Shown: in pieces, positions 14,835-28,894 of the stretch | Numbering within the stretch: the first letter of the stretch is position 1 | Layout: every line of letters starts with the position of its first letter | Source: Betaproteobacteria bacterium | GTDB taxonomy: Bacteria; Pseudomonadota; Gammaproteobacteria; Burkholderiales; SG8-41 | Assembly: GCA_025353085.1 (NCBI GenBank) | Contig: JANXRI010000451.1 | Location: 1 to 36,048, forward strand | Direction of reading: 5' to 3' | DNA length: 36,048 nucleotides | The notes under the pieces: generated by a model | What the model saw: the letters and a program-made list of their open reading frames with translations, nothing else | Databases searched by the model: none | Told to the model about the DNA's origin: nothing | Program-made: the position numbers and the translations under genes

Positions 14835-16937
14835 TCAAAACTGCAATTGGGCGTTGACGCCGACGAGGTAATTGCGCGTCGGCGACGGCTCGTAGAATCG
14901 CAGGTTGCTGTCGGCAACAATCACCGAGCCCACGTATTGGCGGTTGGTAATGTTATCGATGCGCGCGAATTCGGTAACGCGCCATTTGCCGCTGCGTTGC
15001 TCAAAGCCGGCGCGCATATTGCCAATCGTGTAAGGATCGGCAAACGCGCTGTTCTGGTCGTTCACATAAACTTTGCCCGACGAACGCACTTCGGCCGCGG
15101 CGTGAAAACCGCTCGTCGCATGCCGCCACACCACTTCGCCGTAAATTGTGTAAAGCGGCACGCCCGGCAACCGGTTGCCGGAAGCCACGCTGACGGCCGG
15201 CGTGCCCGACGTGAACGGCTGGGAGAATCCGGCGTTGAGCCAGGTATAGGCGAGCGCCGCTTCGAAGCCGGCGCCGAGATAACTTTCCACCGACAGTTCG
15301 ATGCCTTTGCGATCGGTCTTCGGCGCGTTTTTGTAAGTGGTGCGGCCGCCGACTGATGTATCGACCACGATTTCGTTATCGGTGTTGACTTGGAACAGCG
15401 TGAGATTGACGCGCGCGGCTTTGCCGAGCTTGCCCTTGACGCCGATTTCCCTGCTCAAACTGGTCGACGGTTGCAGCGCAAAGTTGAGGCCTGTGCCGGT
15501 ATTACGGTACGCGAGTTCAATCAATGTCGGCGTCTCAAAGCCGCGCCCGATGTTGGCATATACATTCCACGACTGCGCCAGATTGAAAAGCACGCCCGCG
15601 ACCGGTGTTGTCTTCGCATAACTGACCGCGCCGCTATCGTTGCCGTTGCTGACAAAATAATCGTTGGAATTGAAGCGCACATTGCTGTAACGCAGGCCCG
15701 CCGTCGTGCTCCAGCGTGGCGCAAACTTCCATTCGAATTGCCCGTATAAGTCGCTATTCGTGACGGTGTTTTTTTCGTCGCGTTTGAGCGTGCCCTGAAT
15801 GCCGTTATTGTTGAGATAGCCTTTGCGATGCTGGGCCATGCGGTCGTAGTCGACGCCGGCGCTGAAATTAAGCGGGCGGTCGCCGTCGCTGAGGGTATGC
15901 GTCCAGCGCACGCCGAGACCTTCGTAGCCAAAATCCTGATCGACCACGGCGCCCGACGACGTGGCGACGAGTTGGGCCGCGAGCGGAATCGCCTGGAATT
16001 GCGTGACCTGGCGGTCGCCGAGATAAGTGCGCGCCTGGATCTTGTCGGCGCTGCCGAGATTCATGTCATAAACGAGACCGACCTGGTTTTGCCGCACGCT
16101 TTTGCGCGTGTTGAACAGCCTCGCGCTCGGATCGGCTTGGCGCGGGTTCGCGATGACCTGCGCACGGGTCAAGCCGAGCGGATCCTGGGTTTCAGGTTGA
16201 TCGACCGCGTTCACGACCATCGTTAACTGGCCACCGGGCGCCGGCATTTTGAATTTGGCATTCGACAGGTCGCGCGTCACCGTGCTGTGGTCGCGATAAC
16301 CGTCGCTGTGAAAGCGCGATGTGTCGAACATGTAATTGAAACGGCCATCCTGCCCGCCGAACTGCAGGCCGCCTTTGTACGTGCCATAGCTGCCGCCGAA
16401 AGTGGAGCCGCTGAGCGTCGGCTCGGGCGGACCATCGGCCGTGAACAGTTGAATTACGCCGCCCGATGCATTGCCATAAAGACTCGAGAAGGGTCCGCGC
16501 ATGACTTCGATGCGCTCGGCCGAATTCAAATCGAAGCTGGACGCCTGGGCGGAGCCGTCGGGGAGGGTTGCGGGGATGCCATCGGCAATCAGCCGGATGC
16601 CGCGTACGCCGAACGCCGAGCGCGCGCCGAAACCGCGCGATGAAATCTGCAGGTCCTGCGCATAATTCTGGCGATTGAGTATCGAAATACCCGGCACGCG
16701 ATTGAGCGATTCAGAAAGGTTGACCTGCAAGCGGTCTTCGCGGATGACGCTCTTGTCTACGCTGTCGATCGCGACCGGCAGATCGAAACTGTCGCGCGCG
16801 CTGCGCGTGGCGCTCGTGACGACTTCGGGCAACAGGACCGGCGCTGCTGCCGGTTTGGACTCCTGAGCGAACGCGTCAGGCGCCAGGGCCGCGAGCGCAT
16901 AACCGGACAGAACGTATAACGACGCGGTTAGGTTCAT
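14835..16937 (-). CDS. TonB-dependent outer-membrane receptor, YncD/PqqU-like
   Basis: GISILNRQNYAQDLQISSRGFGARSAFGVRGIRLIADGIPATLPDG...RGPFSSLYGNASGGV and GRGFETPTLIELAYR closely resemble my recollection of E. coli YncD. Confidence 0.85.
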   Translation of the reverse strand: MNLTASLYVLSGYALAALAPDAFAQESKPAAAPVLLPEVVTSATRSARDSFDLPVAIDSVDKSVIREDRLQVNLSESLNRVPGISILNRQNYAQDLQISSRGFGARSAFGVRGIRLIADGIPATLPDGSAQASSFDLNSAERIEVMRGPFSSLYGNASGGVIQLFTADGPPEPTLSGSTFGGSYGTYKGGLQFGGQDGRFNYMFDTSRFHSDGYRDHSTVTRDLSNAKFKMPAPGGQLTMVVNAVDQPETQDPLGLTRAQVIANPRQADPSARLFNTRKSVRQNQVGLVYDMNLGSADKIQARTYLGDRQVTQFQAIPLAAQLVATSSGAVVDQDFGYEGLGVRWTHTLSDGDRPLNFSAGVDYDRMAQHRKGYLNNNGIQGTLKRDEKNTVTNSDLYGQFEWKFAPRWSTTAGLRYSNVRFNSNDYFVSNGNDSGAVSYAKTTPVAGVLFNLAQSWNVYANIGRGFETPTLIELAYRNTGTGLNFALQPSTSLSREIGVKGKLGKAARVNLTLFQVNTDNEIVVDTSVGGRTTYKNAPKTDRKGIELSVESYLGAGFEAALAYTWLNAGFSQPFTSGTPAVSVASGNRLPGVPLYTIYGEVVWRHATSGFHAAAEVRSSGKVYVNDQNSAFADPYTIGNMRAGFEQRSGKWRVTEFARIDNITNRQYVGSVIVADSNLRFYEPSPTRNYLVGVNAQLQF

Positions 16938-16963
16938 GTGAAGAAGCACCGTTCGCAAGCGAC

Positions 16964-18972: not shown

Positions 18973-19614
18973 CTATATCACCCTGAAGTAACCGTGTTTT
19001 GCAAAGGTGCAGCCGAATTTGCTTTCGCGCGCAGTATCGGCCTGCAGGCGTCCCGGATTCGCGGCCAGGTACTCGATGATCGCCTCCATCGGTCCGGGTC
19101 CAAAATCGGGCCTTACCGGATGTCCGTTGACGATGGTGTCTTCGACGACGAGATAGTCGCCCGGTTTGAGCCACGGTACCCATACCGTGAGTTCCTTGAA
19201 CACATGCGACGCGGTGTGATCGGAATCGAGCATTAGCAGTAAACCGTGCCGCCGTTTCGGCGGGATGATCGCGGCAACCTGTTCGACCATATCGTCCGCC
19301 GCGCTGTCGCCGAGCAAAAACCGGATGTGTGAATGGGTCGTGGCGACCGGATCCAGCGCGTCATGCGTTACGTCGATCGTGACGACGCTGCCCTCGCGAT
19401 CGCCTGCCGCGAGCAGATCCGCAAAAAACAGGGCCGAGCCGCCGTGGCGGGTGCCCGTTTCGAGCACCCAGTGCAGGTTATTTTCAAAAATGATTTCCTG
19501 GTAGTTCCACATATCGAGTGGCAGCTTCAGCGTCCGAACGCCGCGATAGTGCAGATCCTTCCAGACATGGGTGCCGTAAAACCACTCGAGATACTGCTGT
19601 CCTTCAGGAGTCAC
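18973..19614 (-). CDS. CmcI-like (cephalosporin hydroxylase family) methyltransferase
   Basis: WNYQEIIFENNLHWVLETGTRHGGSALFFADLL; MLDSDHTASHVFKEL; GDYLVVEDTIVNGHPV. Confidence 0.85.
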   Translation of the reverse strand: MTPEGQQYLEWFYGTHVWKDLHYRGVRTLKLPLDMWNYQEIIFENNLHWVLETGTRHGGSALFFADLLAAGDREGSVVTIDVTHDALDPVATTHSHIRFLLGDSAADDMVEQVAAIIPPKRRHGLLLMLDSDHTASHVFKELTVWVPWLKPGDYLVVEDTIVNGHPVRPDFGPGPMEAIIEYLAANPGRLQADTARESKFGCTFAKHGYFRVI

Positions 19615-19624
19615 CGGGTGCCCT

Positions 19625-20152
19625 TTAACGCTCAGGTTTTTTTTCGCCGACGATCCGCATATCCCGCGGCTCCCGCAGCTTGAACTGGGCAGGTTCCTGC
19701 CGCAGATTTACAAGTCCCGCTTCATGCATGACTTCCCCGAGGCTCGCCGGCGAATAACCCCAGCGATGGTTCATCAACGGGTCCTTCCATGCTGGGTCGC
19801 CATAAAATACCCACATTGAACGTTGCCCTTCCTGACCCGGCCCAGTGGCGACATCGGGGTTGCGCAGCAGCTCCTGACAAGCTGAAATCAAGTTCGGGCA
19901 TTCGAGAATCATCATGCCGCCCGGCTTCATCACGCGCAGCCATTCCTTGAGAACGTCGACAACCTCCCAGCGCCAGAAATGCTCGACGACATGGACTGAG
20001 AGTATTTCGTCGATCGTGTCATCGTCGAACGGCGTAAGCCGATGCAAATCGCACAGCACATCGGGCTTATGGCCGCGCCGGCTGGCGGCGACATCGACAT
20101 TAACGTAGCCGGCAAGAATTTTGTCGCCGCAGCCGAGATTCAGCTTTCTCAA
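19625..20152 (-). CDS. SAM-dependent methyltransferase (type 11-like)
   Basis: KLNLGCGDKILAGYVNVDV; ILSVHVVEHF; MKPGGMMILECPN. Confidence 0.85.
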   Translation of the reverse strand: MRKLNLGCGDKILAGYVNVDVAASRRGHKPDVLCDLHRLTPFDDDTIDEILSVHVVEHFWRWEVVDVLKEWLRVMKPGGMMILECPNLISACQELLRNPDVATGPGQEGQRSMWVFYGDPAWKDPLMNHRWGYSPASLGEVMHEAGLVNLRQEPAQFKLREPRDMRIVGEKKPER

Positions 20153-20310
20153 GAACGTTTCCCCATTCCAGCGCTGTTAGCTCACAACAATAGCGGTATA
20201 TGTTACTTGATCGCGCCGGTATAGAATTCGCGTGCCGGTGAAAACAAGACATCTTTACAATCGCGCGCCGGGTCCGTGGATAATTTTCAGGCCGAACGCC
20301 GGATAGGTTT

Positions 20311-21321
20311 ATGAAGGCAGTCTGGATCGTGCCACAGCACGCGCTCAAAACCAATGCCGGCGGCACGGGATCGGACCTCGCGAGCATTCGCTATCGCGCA
20401 ATTATGCCGATGCAGGGCCTGATCGCGCGTGGGCACGACGCGTCGGTGATCGGACTTGATCGAAATTGCGCCGATAACGTGCGCAAGCACATTGCGGACG
20501 CCGACCACCTCGTGTTCATAAAGAATTACGCTGATCCCGTCTGCAGCGAAACAGTGCTCGAAGAGCAACGCGTTAACGGTATAAAGACATGGTTTGATCT
20601 TACCGATGACCGTTTCGAAGGCGCCGCCAGCGAGCATCTTCACCGCATGGTTTTGCTCGCCGACAATGTCATCACGGTATCGTCCGCGCTGCGGCAGATT
20701 ATTTTGCAACATACCGGCAAAGATTCCGTTATCGTCGGTGATCCCTTTGAGGGCCCGCGCGGGACGCCGACGTGGTCGCCGGATGGCGCGCGCCTTAAGA
20801 CGTTATGGTTCGGCTATGGATGGAACATTCCGGGCTTAATGAAGGCGTTGCCTTCATTATTGGAAGCCGCCCGGCAATTTCCGATGGATCTGCGCATCGT
20901 GACCGCGGGTGTCGAGGGCATCGAGCGCTATTGCGAGAAGTTCAATCGCAAAAATGGCGGCGCCTTGTCGCTTGTGTACGTGCCATGGTCCAGCGCCGAA
21001 ACATGGAACACGCTGGCCGCCACCGAGGTTGTGCTTATTCCAGCCTTGCAGGACGAGCCATAGACACTTGCAAAAAGTCCTAACCGGATCATTGAGGCAC
21101 TTTGGTCCGGCCGTTTCGTCATCGCTCATCCGATTCCTTCGTACCTGAAATTCAAGGACTGGGCGTGAATCGGCGCCGACCTGGCGGAAGGCGTCGCATG
21201 GACGATGAACAACCAGGATTCGATCGTTGCGCGTATCGGCGGCGCGCAGACTCATATTGAGTCGGCCTATTCCCCCGCCACGATCGCCTTGCGGCGGGAG
21301 CAGGTTTTCGAGAACGCTTGA
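20311..21321 (+). pseudogene. Glycosyltransferase-like gene interrupted by in-frame TAG (21061-21063) and TGA (21166-21168)
   Basis: Same frame continues after each stop: QDEP*TLAKSPNRIIEALWSGRFVIAHPIPSYLKFKDWA*IGADLAEGVAWTMNNQDSIVARIGGAQ...REQVFENA*. Confidence 0.8.
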
Positions 21322-21511
21322 CCCCATACATTTTCTGACGCCACTGACTGACCGGTCCCGGTTGGGCGACGTTTAAAACGCGCCCTGTTTAAAAGTCAGA
21401 CTTCGCCTGCAGTGTGGTTTCCCGTCCATATTTCCCCGCCGGGTTCTTATTTGAGTTATGCCTTAGATATTTATCTGGACGCCCGACCCTCGGATTTTGG
21501 TCATCTATTCG

Positions 21512-21900
21512 TCATAATGATGGACCGGCACCACTTAAGTTCATGCCGAACAGCACAGGTAACGCGATGTATTCCGCGGGATATGCATCCAGCATCCGAA
21601 CGATCCGCAGTGCCAGCGACCTTAATGTGTTGTAGGCCACTCCAGGACGAATGGCGTGCGTACTCCGGTTTATATATGCCAATGCGTTTGGCATTCTTCG
21701 AGGAAAAATTACAAAAATCCATTCGTTCGATTCTGGATCACGCAATCTCAGAACACACACACACGTTCACCAAACCGAATCGATCGATCACCGCCACCGG
21801 GTACAACAAATCAAATTGGAATAGTGGTGGCTTCCAATCGATTTGGAAGAGGAGTCCATACACACGAACATTCGTCAGTGATTTCAAGACTCTCGGCGGC
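21512..21900 (-). pseudogene. Possible frameshifted, degraded minus-strand ORF
   Basis: Two overlapping frames join at a (GT)n tract at about 21753-21764; downstream part LAYINRSTHAIRPGVAYNTLRSLALRIVRMLDAYP vaguely resembles a tyrosine-recombinase N-terminal domain. Confidence 0.25.
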
Positions 21901-21901
21901 G

Positions 21902-22519
21902 TCACTTTGATTGCAGGAACTCGGCGACCGCTTTCATATCGGTAAGCTTCAATTCCGTGATCAACCCATGCATCACCGACGACTTGCGTAAATTGGTCTG
22001 GATAACCTGTAACTGTCTGACGACGTACGCCGCATGCTGTCCGGCCAGGCGTGGAAATATTGTGTTGCCCTCGGCATTGGCGCCATGGCAACTGACACAG
22101 GCCGTGATCTTTCTTGAGTCGTCGCCATTTTCGAATAAGTGCTTGCCCTGTGCGATGAGGGCGGGATCGCCGGGCTTGCCCGTCGCCGGCGTCTGCGATG
22201 AATAGTAGCCGGCCAATCCATCGACTAAAGCCTCATCCAATGTCGCGGCAATTCCCCACATATAGTCGTGGGCCTCGGGGTCGCTGCGGCTTTTGTCCTT
22301 GAGAGCCCTGAGTTGTGCGGATAGATACATCTTCTGCTGCCCGGCGAGTTTGGGAAATGTCGGTGATATGCTATTGCCCGCCGGACCGTGGCACGAAGAA
22401 CACAAATTGACCGCGACTTTGGCGGCGGCATTGTTGATCGCTTCTGATGATTCGGCCGCTAGTGCGGCACTCGAACTTAACGCCAGCGCCAATCCAACTG
22501 TTGTTGCAATACGCTTCAT
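21902..22519 (-). CDS. Di-haem cytochrome c4-like protein
   Basis: Start MKRIATTVGLALALSSSAALA; CSSCH and CVSCH motifs; FPKLAGQQKMYL and FPRLAGQHAAYV. Confidence 0.92.
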   Translation of the reverse strand: MKRIATTVGLALALSSSAALAAESSEAINNAAAKVAVNLCSSCHGPAGNSISPTFPKLAGQQKMYLSAQLRALKDKSRSDPEAHDYMWGIAATLDEALVDGLAGYYSSQTPATGKPGDPALIAQGKHLFENGDDSRKITACVSCHGANAEGNTIFPRLAGQHAAYVVRQLQVIQTNLRKSSVMHGLITELKLTDMKAVAEFLQSK

Positions 22520-22593
22520 CGCCACGCCCCCATTCTTTTTAGCGGTTGGTTGCACTGAAGCGATGCTGGTTTTATAAACCGTGATTGCGCGCA

Positions 22594-23997
22594 TCAAAAT
22601 GCCACCCACACATTTGCAAACAGCAGATTATTGTCGCGTGCACTTCGCGTGCCGACGCCGTCGTAGGCGGTGCCCCCACCGTTGAACTTCGTGAATCCCG
22701 TGTACTGGAGCATTAGTCGCACATTCTGAATCGGCAGATAATTCAGTTCCACGATGTAGCCGGTGCTGTTGGGACTCCCGTTCGCGCTGCCGGTGACAGC
22801 CGCAGGAGCGTAAAGCCCCGCATCGGCGCTTCCCGTCGTGTTGAAATACGCCACGGTTGCGCCATACTTGCGCTGATAATAGTACGTGCCCTTGACCTTG
22901 AATGTTTGCAGGTTGTTCGTGGCATTGATAGGAACCGGGCCGGCACCAATTCCGCCCGCCGGGAAGCTCGCTTTGTAATCCTGCTTTTCCCAGATATAAG
23001 CGGCCTGCGCGGTGTATGTGTGTACCCCCGACACCGACTGAAATTGGGCATCCACCGCGTAATCCGTGTACTGGTCGGTCGGCGTACTGGGCATTGAATT
23101 ATCGGGATACCGGTTCACGCGCAGGCCGTAGGTGCCTACCATGACCGAGTTCGGCCCCCATTCATGGTTCCATGCGAGACGCCAGTACGGGTTATAGCCT
23201 CGGAGGCGCGCGACGGCGCCAGGAGTCGCGGTGTCCTGTCCAGCGCGGAAGAACGAGAATGCTCCGTCGGCCGTACGATAGAACGATAGCTCCGCGTAAA
23301 TGGATTTTTTCAAAAAAATGTAGCCCCCCATTCCGGCGACCTGCTGGGCGAGCGTGTTGTCTACCTGGGTCTTCGCGGCAGGGTTTACAGCGAACGGCGA
23401 GGCGGTGTATGGGAAACCAAATGCCGACGTGCTGTTCCAAACGTCCTGCACCGTTGGATTGTTGTGCACGGTCAACCCGTAGATTAGTTCGGGCTCCTGT
23501 GAACCGGAGCCGGCATATTTGCCAACAAGACGTATGTCGCTATTGTCGAGCCCCGAGTGTCCTTTGAGGGAGGTGATCCCGTTCGCATCCGTGGAAGAAG
23601 AAACATTGTTGTAGGTGTATTGAACAAATCCGCCGAGATAATCCGTCGCTTTTCCCGCGACGAACAGACTTGCCGCGCTGAATACCGCATCGTTATTTCG
23701 GTTGTTTATGACTGATGCGCCTGAGCCAGTGCCGTCGTCGTTATTGCGGATGGAGTTATACGAAGCCTGCGCCATTACCGCGACCGGAAATAGCTGGCGA
23801 TCGCCTATCGTATATCCGGTTAGTTTGAAATAGCGGCCATACGCGGTAAGTTCCGGGAAACTAATGTGGCATGCGACACATGCCTGGCCGGTCTGTCGAG
23901 CATAGCTGGGGACGGCATGTGCATGTGGCAAAGCTACAAGTAGTAGCACGCCCGAGCACAACGCTTTCAATGGCAGAAATGGCTCTATCGATCGCAT
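22594..23997 (-). CDS. Outer-membrane mono-haem cytochrome-porin fusion, Cyc2-like
   Basis: Signal peptide, YARQTGQACVACHISFPELTAYGRYFKLTGYT near the N-terminus, then about 400 aa of beta-barrel-like sequence ending in aromatic F. Confidence 0.75.
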   Translation of the reverse strand: MRSIEPFLPLKALCSGVLLLVALPHAHAVPSYARQTGQACVACHISFPELTAYGRYFKLTGYTIGDRQLFPVAVMAQASYNSIRNNDDGTGSGASVINNRNNDAVFSAASLFVAGKATDYLGGFVQYTYNNVSSSTDANGITSLKGHSGLDNSDIRLVGKYAGSGSQEPELIYGLTVHNNPTVQDVWNSTSAFGFPYTASPFAVNPAAKTQVDNTLAQQVAGMGGYIFLKKSIYAELSFYRTADGAFSFFRAGQDTATPGAVARLRGYNPYWRLAWNHEWGPNSVMVGTYGLRVNRYPDNSMPSTPTDQYTDYAVDAQFQSVSGVHTYTAQAAYIWEKQDYKASFPAGGIGAGPVPINATNNLQTFKVKGTYYYQRKYGATVAYFNTTGSADAGLYAPAAVTGSANGSPNSTGYIVELNYLPIQNVRLMLQYTGFTKFNGGGTAYDGVGTRSARDNNLLFANVWVAF

Positions 23998-24148
23998 GAC
24001 TAAACCTCCTTGTTATTCCACCATATCTCGCTGTGGGCCACCGTACTACATTCCCTTAAAGACGATGTCACAGACTCCCTATGCGTTAGCGGACAGAGCG
24101 TGGCTTAAATTAAGTTTGACAATTGTGCAGTCCGCTCGACGAGTACGT

Positions 24149-24162
24149 TTGATCTAGATCAA
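24149..24162. promoter_or_regulatory. FNR/Anr-type box
   Basis: TTGATCTAGATCAA, exact match to TTGAT-N4-ATCAA; about 150 bp upstream of the 23997 start. Confidence 0.7.
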
Positions 24163-24386
24163 TTCAACTCGAATTAGACCGCTCACAAGGGCGGGGCTTG
24201 ATGAAGTAAAAACCGAGGGTTATTCAGAGTAATCGCGCCGCCGGGAGTCTTGGGATCACTGACCTATGAGCCAGTAGATTCACCCGAACTCGATATACCG
24301 CCGATGCGGCACCTTTGCTCTGCTGATTTGCATTCCCTCGATCCGCCGTTAACATATCGATTTCTTGGTGTATGTGAAACGGAGGC

Positions 24387-25092
24387 AGAATCATTGCGGC
24401 TTCCAAGCTCACGCCAGCCCGGAAGGACCGGATAGTCCGTGCGCTTCAGTCGCGCGGCCACGTGGTCGGCTTTCTCGGCGACGGCATTAACGACTCGCCA
24501 GCTTTGCGCACGGCGGACATCGGTATTTCCGTAGATACCGCGGTCGACATTGCGAAGGAGTCGGCCGACATAATTTTGCTTGAAAAAAGCCTGATGGTGC
24601 TCGAGGAGGGCGTGCTTGAAGGCCGCAGAACGTTCGGCAACATTTCAAAATATATCAGGATGGCGGCGAGTTCGAATTTCGGCAACATGTTCAGCATCTT
24701 GGGCGCGAGCGCATTTCTGCCTTTCCTCCCGATGCTTCCGCTACAGATTCTGCTTCAGAACTTGCTCTATGACATTTCGCAGATCGCCATTCCCTTCGAT
24801 GACGTAGACAAGGAATACACCGAGAAGCCGCGCAAATGGGTGATCGGCAGTCTGGCTCGTTTCATGATCTGTATCGGCCCGGTCAGTTCCATCTTTGATT
24901 ATGTGACGTTCGCGATGATGTGGTTTGTGTTCTCGGCGCAAGTCCCCACCTCACAATCCCTCTTTCAATCGGGCTGGTTTATCGAAGGGCTACTGTCGCA
25001 GACGCTAATCGTTTATATCATCCGCACGGCAAAAATTCCGTTTATTCAGAGCCGGGCCGCCCTGCCTTTATTGTTGACGACGGCTGCCACGG
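24387..25092 (+). pseudogene. mgtA: C-terminal fragment of an MgtA-type (P3B) Mg2+ P-type ATPase, truncated at both ends
   Basis: [65 protein letters not shown]...[25 protein letters not shown]; catalytic DKTGT half absent; stop codon in frame just upstream. Confidence 0.85.
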
Positions 25093-26239
25093 TAAGTTCG
25101 GAGTTCTCCAGTCGACCAATAGGGAACCATACCTTGTAACGTTGACTAAAAACGCGTCACTTCCAATGGTTCTGCGTAAGCGCATGGCTTTGTTGGCGCG
25201 GGGTTCGACTCTTTCAGAGAGCGATGGGATGGGTTTTAAGGCTGTATTAACGGAACGGGAGGATTGTAAAGATCGTTATAGCGATAGCGATGTATTAACA
25301 ATATCGAATGACTACGATTACTTAAGCGAGGGTGACATCATCCGGTTAGACCCCGTTACAGGTTCAATGCGGTCTCTTTTCAGAAGGAACTCACTTCACA
25401 ATACGATCCTGCTAACGGAGCAATGCAATCACTATTGTTTGATGTGTTCACAGCCTCCGAAGCGAGCAGACGATTCGTGGCTATTAAAGGAAGCGTTTGA
25501 GCTAGTAGATTTAATACCTCGAGACACTCAAGCAATCGGATTTAGCGGCGGGGAGCCGACATTGTACGGCGACAAACTGATAGAGCTATTGGCCCATGTT
25601 AAAAGAAACTTACCAAACACCGCTGTCGATATTCTTTCCAACGGGCGCACTTTCAAGGACTTTGAGTTTGCCAAGAAATATGCCGCCGTCTGTCATCCTG
25701 ACATTCTGGTTGGAATACCGATTTACTCTGATGACCCGGTTCGCCACGATTATGTCGTTCAAAGCAAGGGGGCATTTGACGAAACAGTTCGAGGTATTCT
25801 TAATCTAAAAAGAGTTCAACAGAAGGTGGAGATCAGAGTCGTTATTCATAAGCAAACGATAGATCGACTTGTTAAGACATGCGAATTCATCGCTCGAAAC
25901 CTATTGTTTGTCGATCACGTCGCCTTAATGGGGTTGGAAATCACCGGGTTCACTAGAGCAAATCTGGATGACCTTTGGATTGATCCATACGAATACAAGG
26001 ACGTACTCAGTGAAGCAGTTTCATTGCTAAACAGCTACGGAATGACATCGTCCGTGTACAACCACCAGCTATGCACTGTAAATTCTGACGTGTTGGGAAA
26101 TTACAGAAAATCAATTAGTGATTGGAAGAATGAATATCTTGAGGAATGTGCGTCGTGCACAAAATTCGTCGAATGTGGCGGGTTGTTTTCCTTGGCAAAA
26201 ATGTACAAACATAGCCAATACATAAGAGCATTTACCTAG
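24920..26239 (+). CDS. hxsC: HxsC-like radical SAM maturase (His-Xaa-Ser system); native part probably starts after about 25090
   Basis: [22 protein letters not shown] (CxxxCxxC), [72 protein letters not shown]. The ORF 5' end overlaps the ATPase fragment in another frame. Confidence 0.8.
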
Positions 26240-26353
26240 ATGTCCTGCTGAATGTTAGTAGCAGTTTGACGCCGGGTGGTCATTTACACAATGCCGATGT
26301 GTTGCAATCCGAATTGAAGAAGACCGCAATAGCTGTGTCGTCAACGACTCAAT

Positions 26354-26487
26354 TCAGTAAAAATCAGCACGCTTCCCCAAGCACACCATCCAAATTTACT
26401 GAGGGCAGACTAGTAGTTCCCCGTGCAGGGTCATCAGACACTTCAGTAAAAGTCACCGCTCTCCACCCATATACATCTTTTACTGAA
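26354..26487. repeat. Four alternating copies of TCAGTAAA, including a perfect 11-bp inverted repeat
   Basis: TCAGTAAA 26354-26361, TTTACTGA 26395-26402, TTCAGTAAAAG 26442-26452, CTTTTACTGAA 26477-26487. Confidence 0.8.
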
Positions 26488-26500
26488 CCCAAACAGTCTG

Positions 26501-26530
26501 TTGGAGGCAGGTCCGGTAGTAGCGTAAAAT
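26501..26530 (+). promoter_or_regulatory. Possible sigma-70 promoter for tRNA-Gly
   Basis: TTGGAG, 18 bp spacer, TAAAAT, ending 12 bp before the tRNA. Confidence 0.4.
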
Positions 26531-26542
26531 CGCCGCCAGTCC

Positions 26543-26616
26543 GCGGGTGTAGTTCAATGGCAGAACGGCAGCTTCCCAAGCTGCATACGAGGGTTCGATT
26601 CCCTTCACCCGCTCCA
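26543..26616 (+). tRNA. tRNA-Gly (anticodon CCC)
   Basis: Acceptor GCGGGTG/CACCCGC, anticodon stem GCAGC/GCTGC with loop TTCCCAA, T-arm GGGTTCGATTCCC, encoded CCA. Confidence 0.95.
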
Positions 26617-26656
26617 TTTGAATCGCGCGCGTCATCAACCAGACGGGGTCTGCGCC

Positions 26657-28894
26657 ATGAATAAAATCGTTAAATTTGTCGTCTTGCCGCTAGCCGCTTT
26701 GATTGTCGTCGTCGTGGCCATCGGCGCGTATGTCGCAGCGACTTTCGACCCGAACGAGTACAAAGCGCAGATCGTGCAGGCGGTAAAGGACAAAACCAAG
26801 CGCACCTTGCGGCTCGATGGCGACATCAAGCTGTCGCTGTTTCCGAGCATAGGCGCCAGGGTCGGCAAGGCGTCGCTGTCGGAATACGGCAAAGACCAGG
26901 AATTCGCGAGCGTCGATGAAATGCGCGTCTCGCTGAAGGTCATGCCGCTACTGTCTAAAGAGCTGATCATCGACGCGATCGAGATTAAAAACCTGCGCGC
27001 GAACCTGGTCCGCGGCAAAGACGGCAAACTGAACGTTGACGACCTGACGGGTAGCGACAAGCCGGCGCCGACCGCAAAAACCGAGACGTCGCCCGTTAAA
27101 ATCGATATCGACCACGTGACACTGGACAACGCGACGGTGTCTTATGTCGACCAAGCGGCCGGCACCAAGTACGCGCTGTCGAAGGTAAACCTTAAGACCG
27201 GCCGCATTGCGAACGGCGTGCCGGGCAAAATTGATCTCGCGTTTAACGCGCAAAGCGAAAAACCGAAGCTTAATCTCGACGCTGCGCTCAAAACCTCGCT
27301 TATGTTCAATCTGGACCAGCAGCATTACGTGCTCGACGGATTGGATTTCAACGCCAATGGTACGGCAGCCGGAATCAATAACCTGGCCGCGACCGTCAAG
27401 GGCGACATCGACGCCAAGCCGGCGACCAAGGAACTCGTGGTATCGAAACTTGCGGTTGCAGCGACCGGCAAACCGGCAGGCGGCGGCGACCTTAACGTGA
27501 AGTTCGACGCGCCCAAACTCAATGTGACCAAAGATAAAGTGAATGGCGAGAAAATTGTGCTCGATGCGACTATGTCCGACGCCAAGGGCAAGACCCTGGT
27601 CAAGCTTGAGATCCCAAGCTTGGACGGCACCGCCAAGGCGTTCACCGCTGCGAGCATGACGTTGAATATCGAAACGCAAAGCGATGGTGCGACGATGAAG
27701 GCCAAAGTCACGAGCCCGCTGACGGGCAGCGTCGATGCGGAAAAAATTGAGCTTGCCAAATTGACGGCGACCGTCAATGTCAACAACCCCAAGTTGCCGA
27801 AGAACCCGATTGATGCAACGGTCACCGGCTCAGCAGCGGTAGATCTGGTCAAGCAGAATGCGAACTTTGTTTTCGCCACTAAATTCGACGATAGCAATAT
27901 CAACGGCAAAGCGGGGTTGACCAAATTTACGCCGCCGTTTTACACGTTCGATATTAATATCGATCAGCTCGATGCAGATCGTTATCTGCCCAAATCGGAC
28001 CCCAAGCAGAAACAACCCGAGCAGCCGATCGACCTCGCCTCGTTAAAAGGCTTAAACGCCAACGGCACCATCAAAATCGGCACGCTAAAAGTGGCGAACG
28101 TCAAAGCAGCGAATGTGCGCGTTGAAGTGAAAGCGGCGAACGGCCGGGTCGACGTCAGTCCGATCGCCGCCAACCTCTATCAAGGTACGCTCGCCGGAGC
28201 GCTGTCGGTGCAGTCCGGAGCGACGCCGGTCATCGCCGTCAAGCAAACGCTTACCGGCATTAATGTCGGCCCAATGCTGAAAGATGCGGCGAACTTCGAT
28301 TCGCTTGAAGGCAAAGGCAATTTGTCGCTCGATGTGAGCGGACAGGGACACACTGTGTCGGCGATCAAAAAAGCGCTGAGCGGCAACGCCGCGATCAGGC
28401 TCACCGATGGTGCAATCAAGGGTATCAACATTGCCGGATCAATCCGCGATGCGAAGTCGAAACTGGGTGCGTTGAAAGGCGAGAAGTCGCAGGCCGCCAG
28501 CCAGACCGAGAAAACCGACTTCTCGGAATTAACCGGCACCTTCAATATCAAGAACGGCGTTGCGCACAATAACGACCTCGCCGGAAAATCGCCATTGCTC
28601 CGGCTCGGCGGCGATGGCGACATCGACCTCGGCAATGAAAATCTTAACTACCTGGTCAAGGCGACAGTGGTCGCGACGGCGGCAGGCCAGGGCGGCCGGG
28701 AGCTCGCGGAATTGAAAGGGCTGACGGTGCCGGTCAAGCTGACGGGGCCGTTTTCTGCGCCTCAGTACCAAATCGATTTCAGCGGTATTGCGGCGAGTGC
28801 GGCGCAAGCGGTCGTCGAAAGCAAGAAGGAAGAGATCAAGGCCAAGGTGCAGGATCAGCTGCAGGACAAACTCAAGGGGCTGTTTGGGCGCTAA
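26657..28894 (+). CDS. AsmA family protein
   Basis: Start MNKIVKFVVLPLAALIVVVVAIGAYVAATFDPNEYKAQIVQAVKDKTKRTLRLDGDI; C-terminal AsmA repeats. Confidence 0.9.
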   Translation: MNKIVKFVVLPLAALIVVVVAIGAYVAATFDPNEYKAQIVQAVKDKTKRTLRLDGDIKLSLFPSIGARVGKASLSEYGKDQEFASVDEMRVSLKVMPLLSKELIIDAIEIKNLRANLVRGKDGKLNVDDLTGSDKPAPTAKTETSPVKIDIDHVTLDNATVSYVDQAAGTKYALSKVNLKTGRIANGVPGKIDLAFNAQSEKPKLNLDAALKTSLMFNLDQQHYVLDGLDFNANGTAAGINNLAATVKGDIDAKPATKELVVSKLAVAATGKPAGGGDLNVKFDAPKLNVTKDKVNGEKIVLDATMSDAKGKTLVKLEIPSLDGTAKAFTAASMTLNIETQSDGATMKAKVTSPLTGSVDAEKIELAKLTATVNVNNPKLPKNPIDATVTGSAAVDLVKQNANFVFATKFDDSNINGKAGLTKFTPPFYTFDINIDQLDADRYLPKSDPKQKQPEQPIDLASLKGLNANGTIKIGTLKVANVKAANVRVEVKAANGRVDVSPIAANLYQGTLAGALSVQSGATPVIAVKQTLTGINVGPMLKDAANFDSLEGKGNLSLDVSGQGHTVSAIKKALSGNAAIRLTDGAIKGINIAGSIRDAKSKLGALKGEKSQAASQTEKTDFSELTGTFNIKNGVAHNNDLAGKSPLLRLGGDGDIDLGNENLNYLVKATVVATAAGQGGRELAELKGLTVPVKLTGPFSAPQYQIDFSGIAASAAQAVVESKKEEIKAKVQDQLQDKLKGLFGR

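Follow-up and report, generated by a model that had tools for sequence, protein, structure and literature searches.

The window, a stretch of 36,048 nucleotides from a 3.3 Mb MAG (89.5% complete), carries on its minus strand a cyc2 homolog followed by a cyc1-like gene, with an FNR-type operator upstream of the pair. It is likely that this arrangement constitutes a two-gene outer-membrane conduit of the Cyc2/Cyc1 type, which would be induced at low oxygen and would pass electrons from Fe(II), via a cytochrome c4, to a cbb3 oxidase. As proteins, the two are unremarkable representatives of a known family; what appears to be new is the regulatory wiring, an FNR-type box on cyc2-cyc1.

The Cyc2-family protein and its c4 partner

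The cyc2 homolog (22594..23997, minus strand) encodes a fused mono-haem cytochrome/16-strand porin of 467 residues, as judged from the open reading frame, alignment and a structural model. The frame opens with an ATG that has a good ribosome-binding site (AGGAGG; 24005..24010, minus strand), and its hydrophobic leader ends HAHA/VPSY; residues 1–28, ending AHA (23914..23997, minus strand), form a probable signal peptide, the cleavage site of which was placed by eye. The Cyc2 signature is present as AVPSYARQT (23890..23916, minus strand), with Y in place of the F of the published consensus AXPXFAR[Q/K][T/Y]; the same substitution occurs in several near relatives, others retaining F. The single CXXCH of the protein is the haem c attachment site CVACH (residues 40–44), which is followed by PEL, corresponding to the published PXL motif (23866..23880, minus strand). 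The C-terminus reads VAF.

Sequence searches of Pfam, NCBIfam and the PDB with the 467-residue protein returned no match, and family membership was therefore shown by other routes. Relatives of the protein are found in the Burkholderiales, Rhodanobacteraceae (Dyella), Nevskia, a Ferrovum bin, Collimonas, Cupriavidus, Gemmatimonadota and Acidobacteriota; 80 relatives, 35–64% identical to the window protein, were fetched from genome records. The invariant columns of a 52-sequence alignment include P30, R34, Q35, C40, C43, H44, P48 and L50, and those of the haem region are the published Cyc2 signature, AXPXFAR[Q/K][T/Y] followed by CXXCH and PXL. A rus-type operon in another genome (G336), found through a rusticyanin search and recognised by its gene content, i.e. 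cyc2-coxB-coxA-ctaA-rusticyanin-like copper protein, with a cytochrome c1 further along, encodes a Cyc2 to which the window protein can be aligned over its whole length (33% identity, E 4e-69). The rusticyanin contig of a further genome (G280) was examined and no cyc2 was found on it. The tree contains a single Cyc2 reference, this rus-operon protein recognised by gene content, and a supported split separates it from the window protein.

An AlphaFold2 model built on the 52-row alignment (mean pLDDT 87.1) reveals a small N-terminal helical haem region preceding a barrel domain (residues 72–466; 22600..23784, minus strand) with exactly 16 predicted β-strands. Among solved structures, OmpF-type porins have the closest folds, and AlgE ranks high as well. 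The first-pass annotation had proposed a Cyc2-like haem-porin fusion with a single CXXCH, to be checked by structure prediction for a 16-strand barrel, and the fusion is borne out by the signature, by the full-length alignment with the rus-operon Cyc2 and by the model. That annotation had also named placement in an unrelated porin family, with a chance CXXCH, as grounds for abandoning the assignment, an outcome ruled out by the end-to-end homology to the rus-operon protein. At 467 residues the protein lies above the lower length limit for the family (at least 365), and we regard it as almost certainly a member of Cyc2.

Elsewhere in the family, one genome of the class sample (G401) has four places that match the Cyc2 profile (L131 and three others). 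An A. ferrooxidans plasmid (CP084173.1; L126) carries a Cyc2 homolog that is annotated as hypothetical and has a transposase and a c-type cytochrome as neighbours; in the search table, a match on an Acidiphilium cryptum plasmid equals it in coverage, identity and score.

The cyc1-like gene (21902..22519, minus strand) starts 74 bp past the cyc2 stop on the same strand, just beyond the interval 22594–24162 that the first-pass annotation had correctly delimited, and encodes a periplasmic di-haem cytochrome c4 of 205 residues, as that annotation had described the next minus-strand gene. The protein has two CXXCH motifs within two haem c domains, and qualifies for membership of cyc1 (cytochrome c4). 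Its best solved relative is the A. ferrooxidans c4 of PDB entry 1h1o (E 1.5e-35; 126 bits, the next c4 scoring 104 bits), an entry which we take, from a cited reference and general knowledge, to be CYC41/Cyc1. Of 109 homologs, 58 have a cyc1-like gene 3′ of cyc2 in the same orientation (27 of 67 when non-redundant). The rus operon has the order cyc2-cyc1 seen here, and cyc2 and cyc1 genes that stand alone have also been published. We conclude that 21902–22519 very probably encodes the cyc1-type partner of cyc2.

Three congeners have cyc2-cyc1 in common with the present genome, with differing flanking genes, and of the 15 genomes in the genus only 4, counting this MAG, encode a full-length Cyc2 homolog. 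The pair is thus patchily distributed and, given the differing neighbours and the small number of genomes that contain a homolog, probably moves as a unit.

The first-pass annotation had placed the pair in an otherwise housekeeping context, which is partly right; the pair itself lies in a stretch of lower G+C (19500–27000; 0.48–0.56, against about 0.59 on either side), by a tRNA-Gly (26543–26616, plus strand), which is near the end of that stretch, and a truncated Mg-type P-ATPase. From its composition the stretch looks like acquired DNA. A direct repeat of the tRNA-Gly end, an island mark, was sought at the locus and not found. The P-ATPase gene (24462–25139, plus strand) is divergent from cyc2 and retains the C-terminal part only; the frame upstream of it looks like more ATPase before a stop, and on these reading frames the piece is a gene remnant adjoining the cyc2 promoter. 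Also in the window are a radical SAM maturase (24920–26239, plus strand), which scores above the cut-off for HxsC (His-Xaa-Ser system), and a TonB-dependent receptor (14835–16958, minus strand), which is nearest to the PqqU family and scores under the PqqU cut-off.

The FNR-type operator and promoter geometry

The operator TTGATCTAGATCAA (24149..24162, minus strand), recognised by pattern match and conservation, lies 151 nt upstream of the cyc2 ATG. The first-pass annotation had reported a perfect FNR-type box about 150 bp upstream, and its reading is supported by the conservation and class II geometry described below. The box is the sole site with no or one mismatch in the window, a window of such size being expected to yield about one chance match at up to one mismatch. 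The perfect box occurs at 11 sites in the 3.3-Mb genome, and a reversed control pattern at none. A −10-like hexamer, CACAAT (24122..24127, minus strand), follows 21 nt after the box, which is the class II FNR spacing.

Of the 17 closest homologs, 13 have TTGAT-N4-ATCAA with no or one mismatch in the 300 bp before the start (0.17 expected). Under the same limits on mismatch and distance, the box precedes 24 of the 68 Cyc2 homologs that are below 75% identity (0.7 expected), and five control palindromes of the same composition gave 0–2 matches in these 68. On these counts the excess is strong, though it is not to be read as an exact probability, because the expected counts for the 68-homolog set derive from first-order Markov sampling and because homologs that neighbour one another are not independent observations. 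The position of the box varies from −70 to −250 across homologs, so that simple sequence inheritance does not account for it.

When scored by distance after the box, the −10 hexamer gives a single clear peak at 21–22 nt, with none of 5000 shuffles as high, in a test that is partly dependent on a first look at the close clade, which is contained in the wider set viewed afterwards. A −10 peak was sought in the direction opposite to cyc2 and none was found. The combination of TTGAT-N4-ATCAA with a −10 element 21–22 nt downstream fits, by sequence and with a predicted start, a class II promoter in which the operator is centred at −41.5.

Across the tree the box shows a scattered distribution (18 changes, barely better than shuffled labels), which indicates repeated gain or loss. 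The homologs of Burkholderia/Paraburkholderia and of Gemmatimonadota have no box upstream, and control by the box is thus not universal. The Burkholderia/Paraburkholderia loci (e.g. L021, L038) have in common a conserved block upstream, which includes an ORF of roughly 565 residues with one CXXCH. For the window, the conserved palindrome and its spacing make FNR-type control of cyc2-cyc1 likely.

Proposed function, regulator and alternative explanations

Within the genome, intergenic perfect boxes precede cyc2, hemN, a cyclopropane fatty acid synthase gene, a SafE-like gene beside cco, and a CcoI-type copper ATPase gene, the placement of the last being judged by the likely start codon; the remaining perfect boxes of the 11 lie within reading frames. 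The ccoN product scores above the curated cut-off for cbb3, and a near-perfect box, TTGATCTATGTCAA, is located about 50 bp upstream of the gene. An aa3 oxidase is also encoded. Oxidases, haem synthesis and anaerobic respiration are the usual targets of FNR/ANR, and the boxed genes hemN and cco are the usual FNR/ANR set; to our knowledge, Cyc2 has not been reported as a target of FNR/ANR.

In the mechanism that we propose, an FNR/ANR-type regulator would activate transcription of cyc2-cyc1 when oxygen is scarce. Cyc2, at the cell surface, would accept electrons from dissolved Fe(II), or from a soluble donor of similar potential, and transfer them via its haem to the periplasmic c4, from which they would probably pass to the high-affinity cbb3 oxidase. 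The cbb3 oxidase is proposed as the acceptor because in this genome a box of the same type precedes its genes; c4 is known as an electron donor to cbb3 in other Proteobacteria. As to the natural donor of the window Cyc2, we lean slightly towards Fe(II), and we know of no close homolog that has been assayed. For the Cyc2 of M. ferrooxydans PV-1, Fe(II) oxidation has been published, as has a potential of 208 mV (PMC8406198). A search of the MAG for RuBisCO found none, and since none was detected the conduit is more likely to supplement the energy supply of an organotroph, or to serve it in handling Fe(II), than to form the basis for autotrophic iron oxidation.

The most probable alternative is a Cyc2-family protein which also works at low oxygen in an organotroph but has another job: it might export electrons to an acceptor outside the cell, oxidise some soluble donor that is not Fe(II), or act as a redox gate of a porin. 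Such a role would be compatible with the box, which could govern any low-oxygen pathway, with the lack of a detectable RuBisCO and with the occurrence of homologs in Dyella and further organotrophs; moreover, published authors call the function of Cyc2 uncertain far from the tested members. The haem-flanking signature and the Cyc1-type partner nonetheless match those of Fe(II) oxidases, and the published 208 mV would suit an Fe(II) donor better than reduction of Fe(III) oxides, so that we consider another job plausible but unlikely.

A second alternative concerns the regulator. The same box is read by Dnr, FixK and related regulators, which use identical half-sites, and the pair could in principle belong to a denitrification response, under an NO- or nitrate-related Crp/Fnr protein of the Dnr or FixK type, rather than to oxygen limitation. 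An fnr gene was searched for in the 89.5%-complete MAG and not found, as this reading would have it; a CRP-like protein without the Fe-S cysteines is present, together with other Crp-fold proteins. With regard to loss of fnr at a contig edge, the contig stops about 335 bp past the hemN box, and no start of an fnr ORF was found there. Across the genus, FNR scores above its curated cut-off in 10 of the 15 genomes, including all three congeners with cyc2-cyc1, which favours FNR-type control. At most of the fnr loci examined in FNR-positive congeners the gene adjoins hemN, which speaks against a Dnr- or FixK-type reader. So do the boxes before hemN and cco, the classic FNR/ANR set, and the molybdopterin enzymes detected in the MAG, which are NuoG and a formate dehydrogenase, with neither Nar nor Nap among them. 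On balance a denitrification response is improbable. The chance that an unrelated porin has acquired both a fortuitous CXXCH and a fortuitous upstream palindrome, as the want of a Pfam, NCBIfam or PDB sequence match might suggest, is negligible in view of a haem region invariant in 52 sequences, the full-length homology to the rus-operon Cyc2, and the conservation of both the box and its spacing.

Returning to the low-oxygen-induced Cyc2/Cyc1-type conduit, a broader proposal can be made only tentatively: it is possible that, across much of the Proteobacteria and not excepting organotrophs, the FNR/ANR regulon regularly comprises cyc2, alone or with cyc1, alongside the cbb3 oxidase. If so, surface oxidation of Fe(II) would be a widespread accessory of micro-oxic respiration and no speciality of iron oxidisers. 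In a limited literature search we found no published link between cyc2 and FNR control, and the paper on FNR of A. ferrooxidans makes no mention of cyc2, the rus operon or iron oxidation. Whether many cyc2 genes outside the known iron oxidisers encode iron oxidases is open in the literature. A conserved low-oxygen operator provides a direct handle on that question, in that it predicts when the cyc2 genes are on and which oxidase is co-expressed, and makes a clean test possible in cultivable relatives such as Dyella.

Comparison with known systems

The promoter resembles FNR/ANR class II promoters of the hemN and ccoN type, which likewise combine TTGAT-N4-ATCAA with a −10 element 21–22 nt downstream. 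With regard to the proteins, the rus operon of A. ferrooxidans has the order cyc2-cyc1-cup-coxBACD-rus (PMC10654088). The window pair is like the A. ferrooxidans system in its haem-porin fusion, its signature motif and the di-haem c4 (Cyc1) directly after cyc2 (PMC10654088), but comprises the first two genes only, without cup, cox or rusticyanin. Control also differs, since A. ferrooxidans uses RegB/RegA and sigma-70 promoters (PMC5506826), whereas an FNR-type class II operator is present here.

By its description, the Cyc2 of M. ferrooxydans PV-1 (PMC8406198) is similar in its single haem, 16-strand porin, and AXPXFAR[Q/K][T/Y] and PXL motifs. That protein belongs to Cluster 1, of the neutrophilic iron oxidisers, whereas the relatives of the window protein are mostly from Burkholderiales and Rhodanobacteraceae. 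Within the same clade as the window protein, the homolog of Dyella halodurans shares about 60% identity with it; cyc1 lies downstream, and the box there has one mismatch. Roseateles, like Dyella, is a cultured relative that has both the box and cyc1. The homologs of Dyella, Rhodanobacteraceae and Burkholderiales have been catalogued as putative iron oxidases (PMC7767972, PMC10654088).
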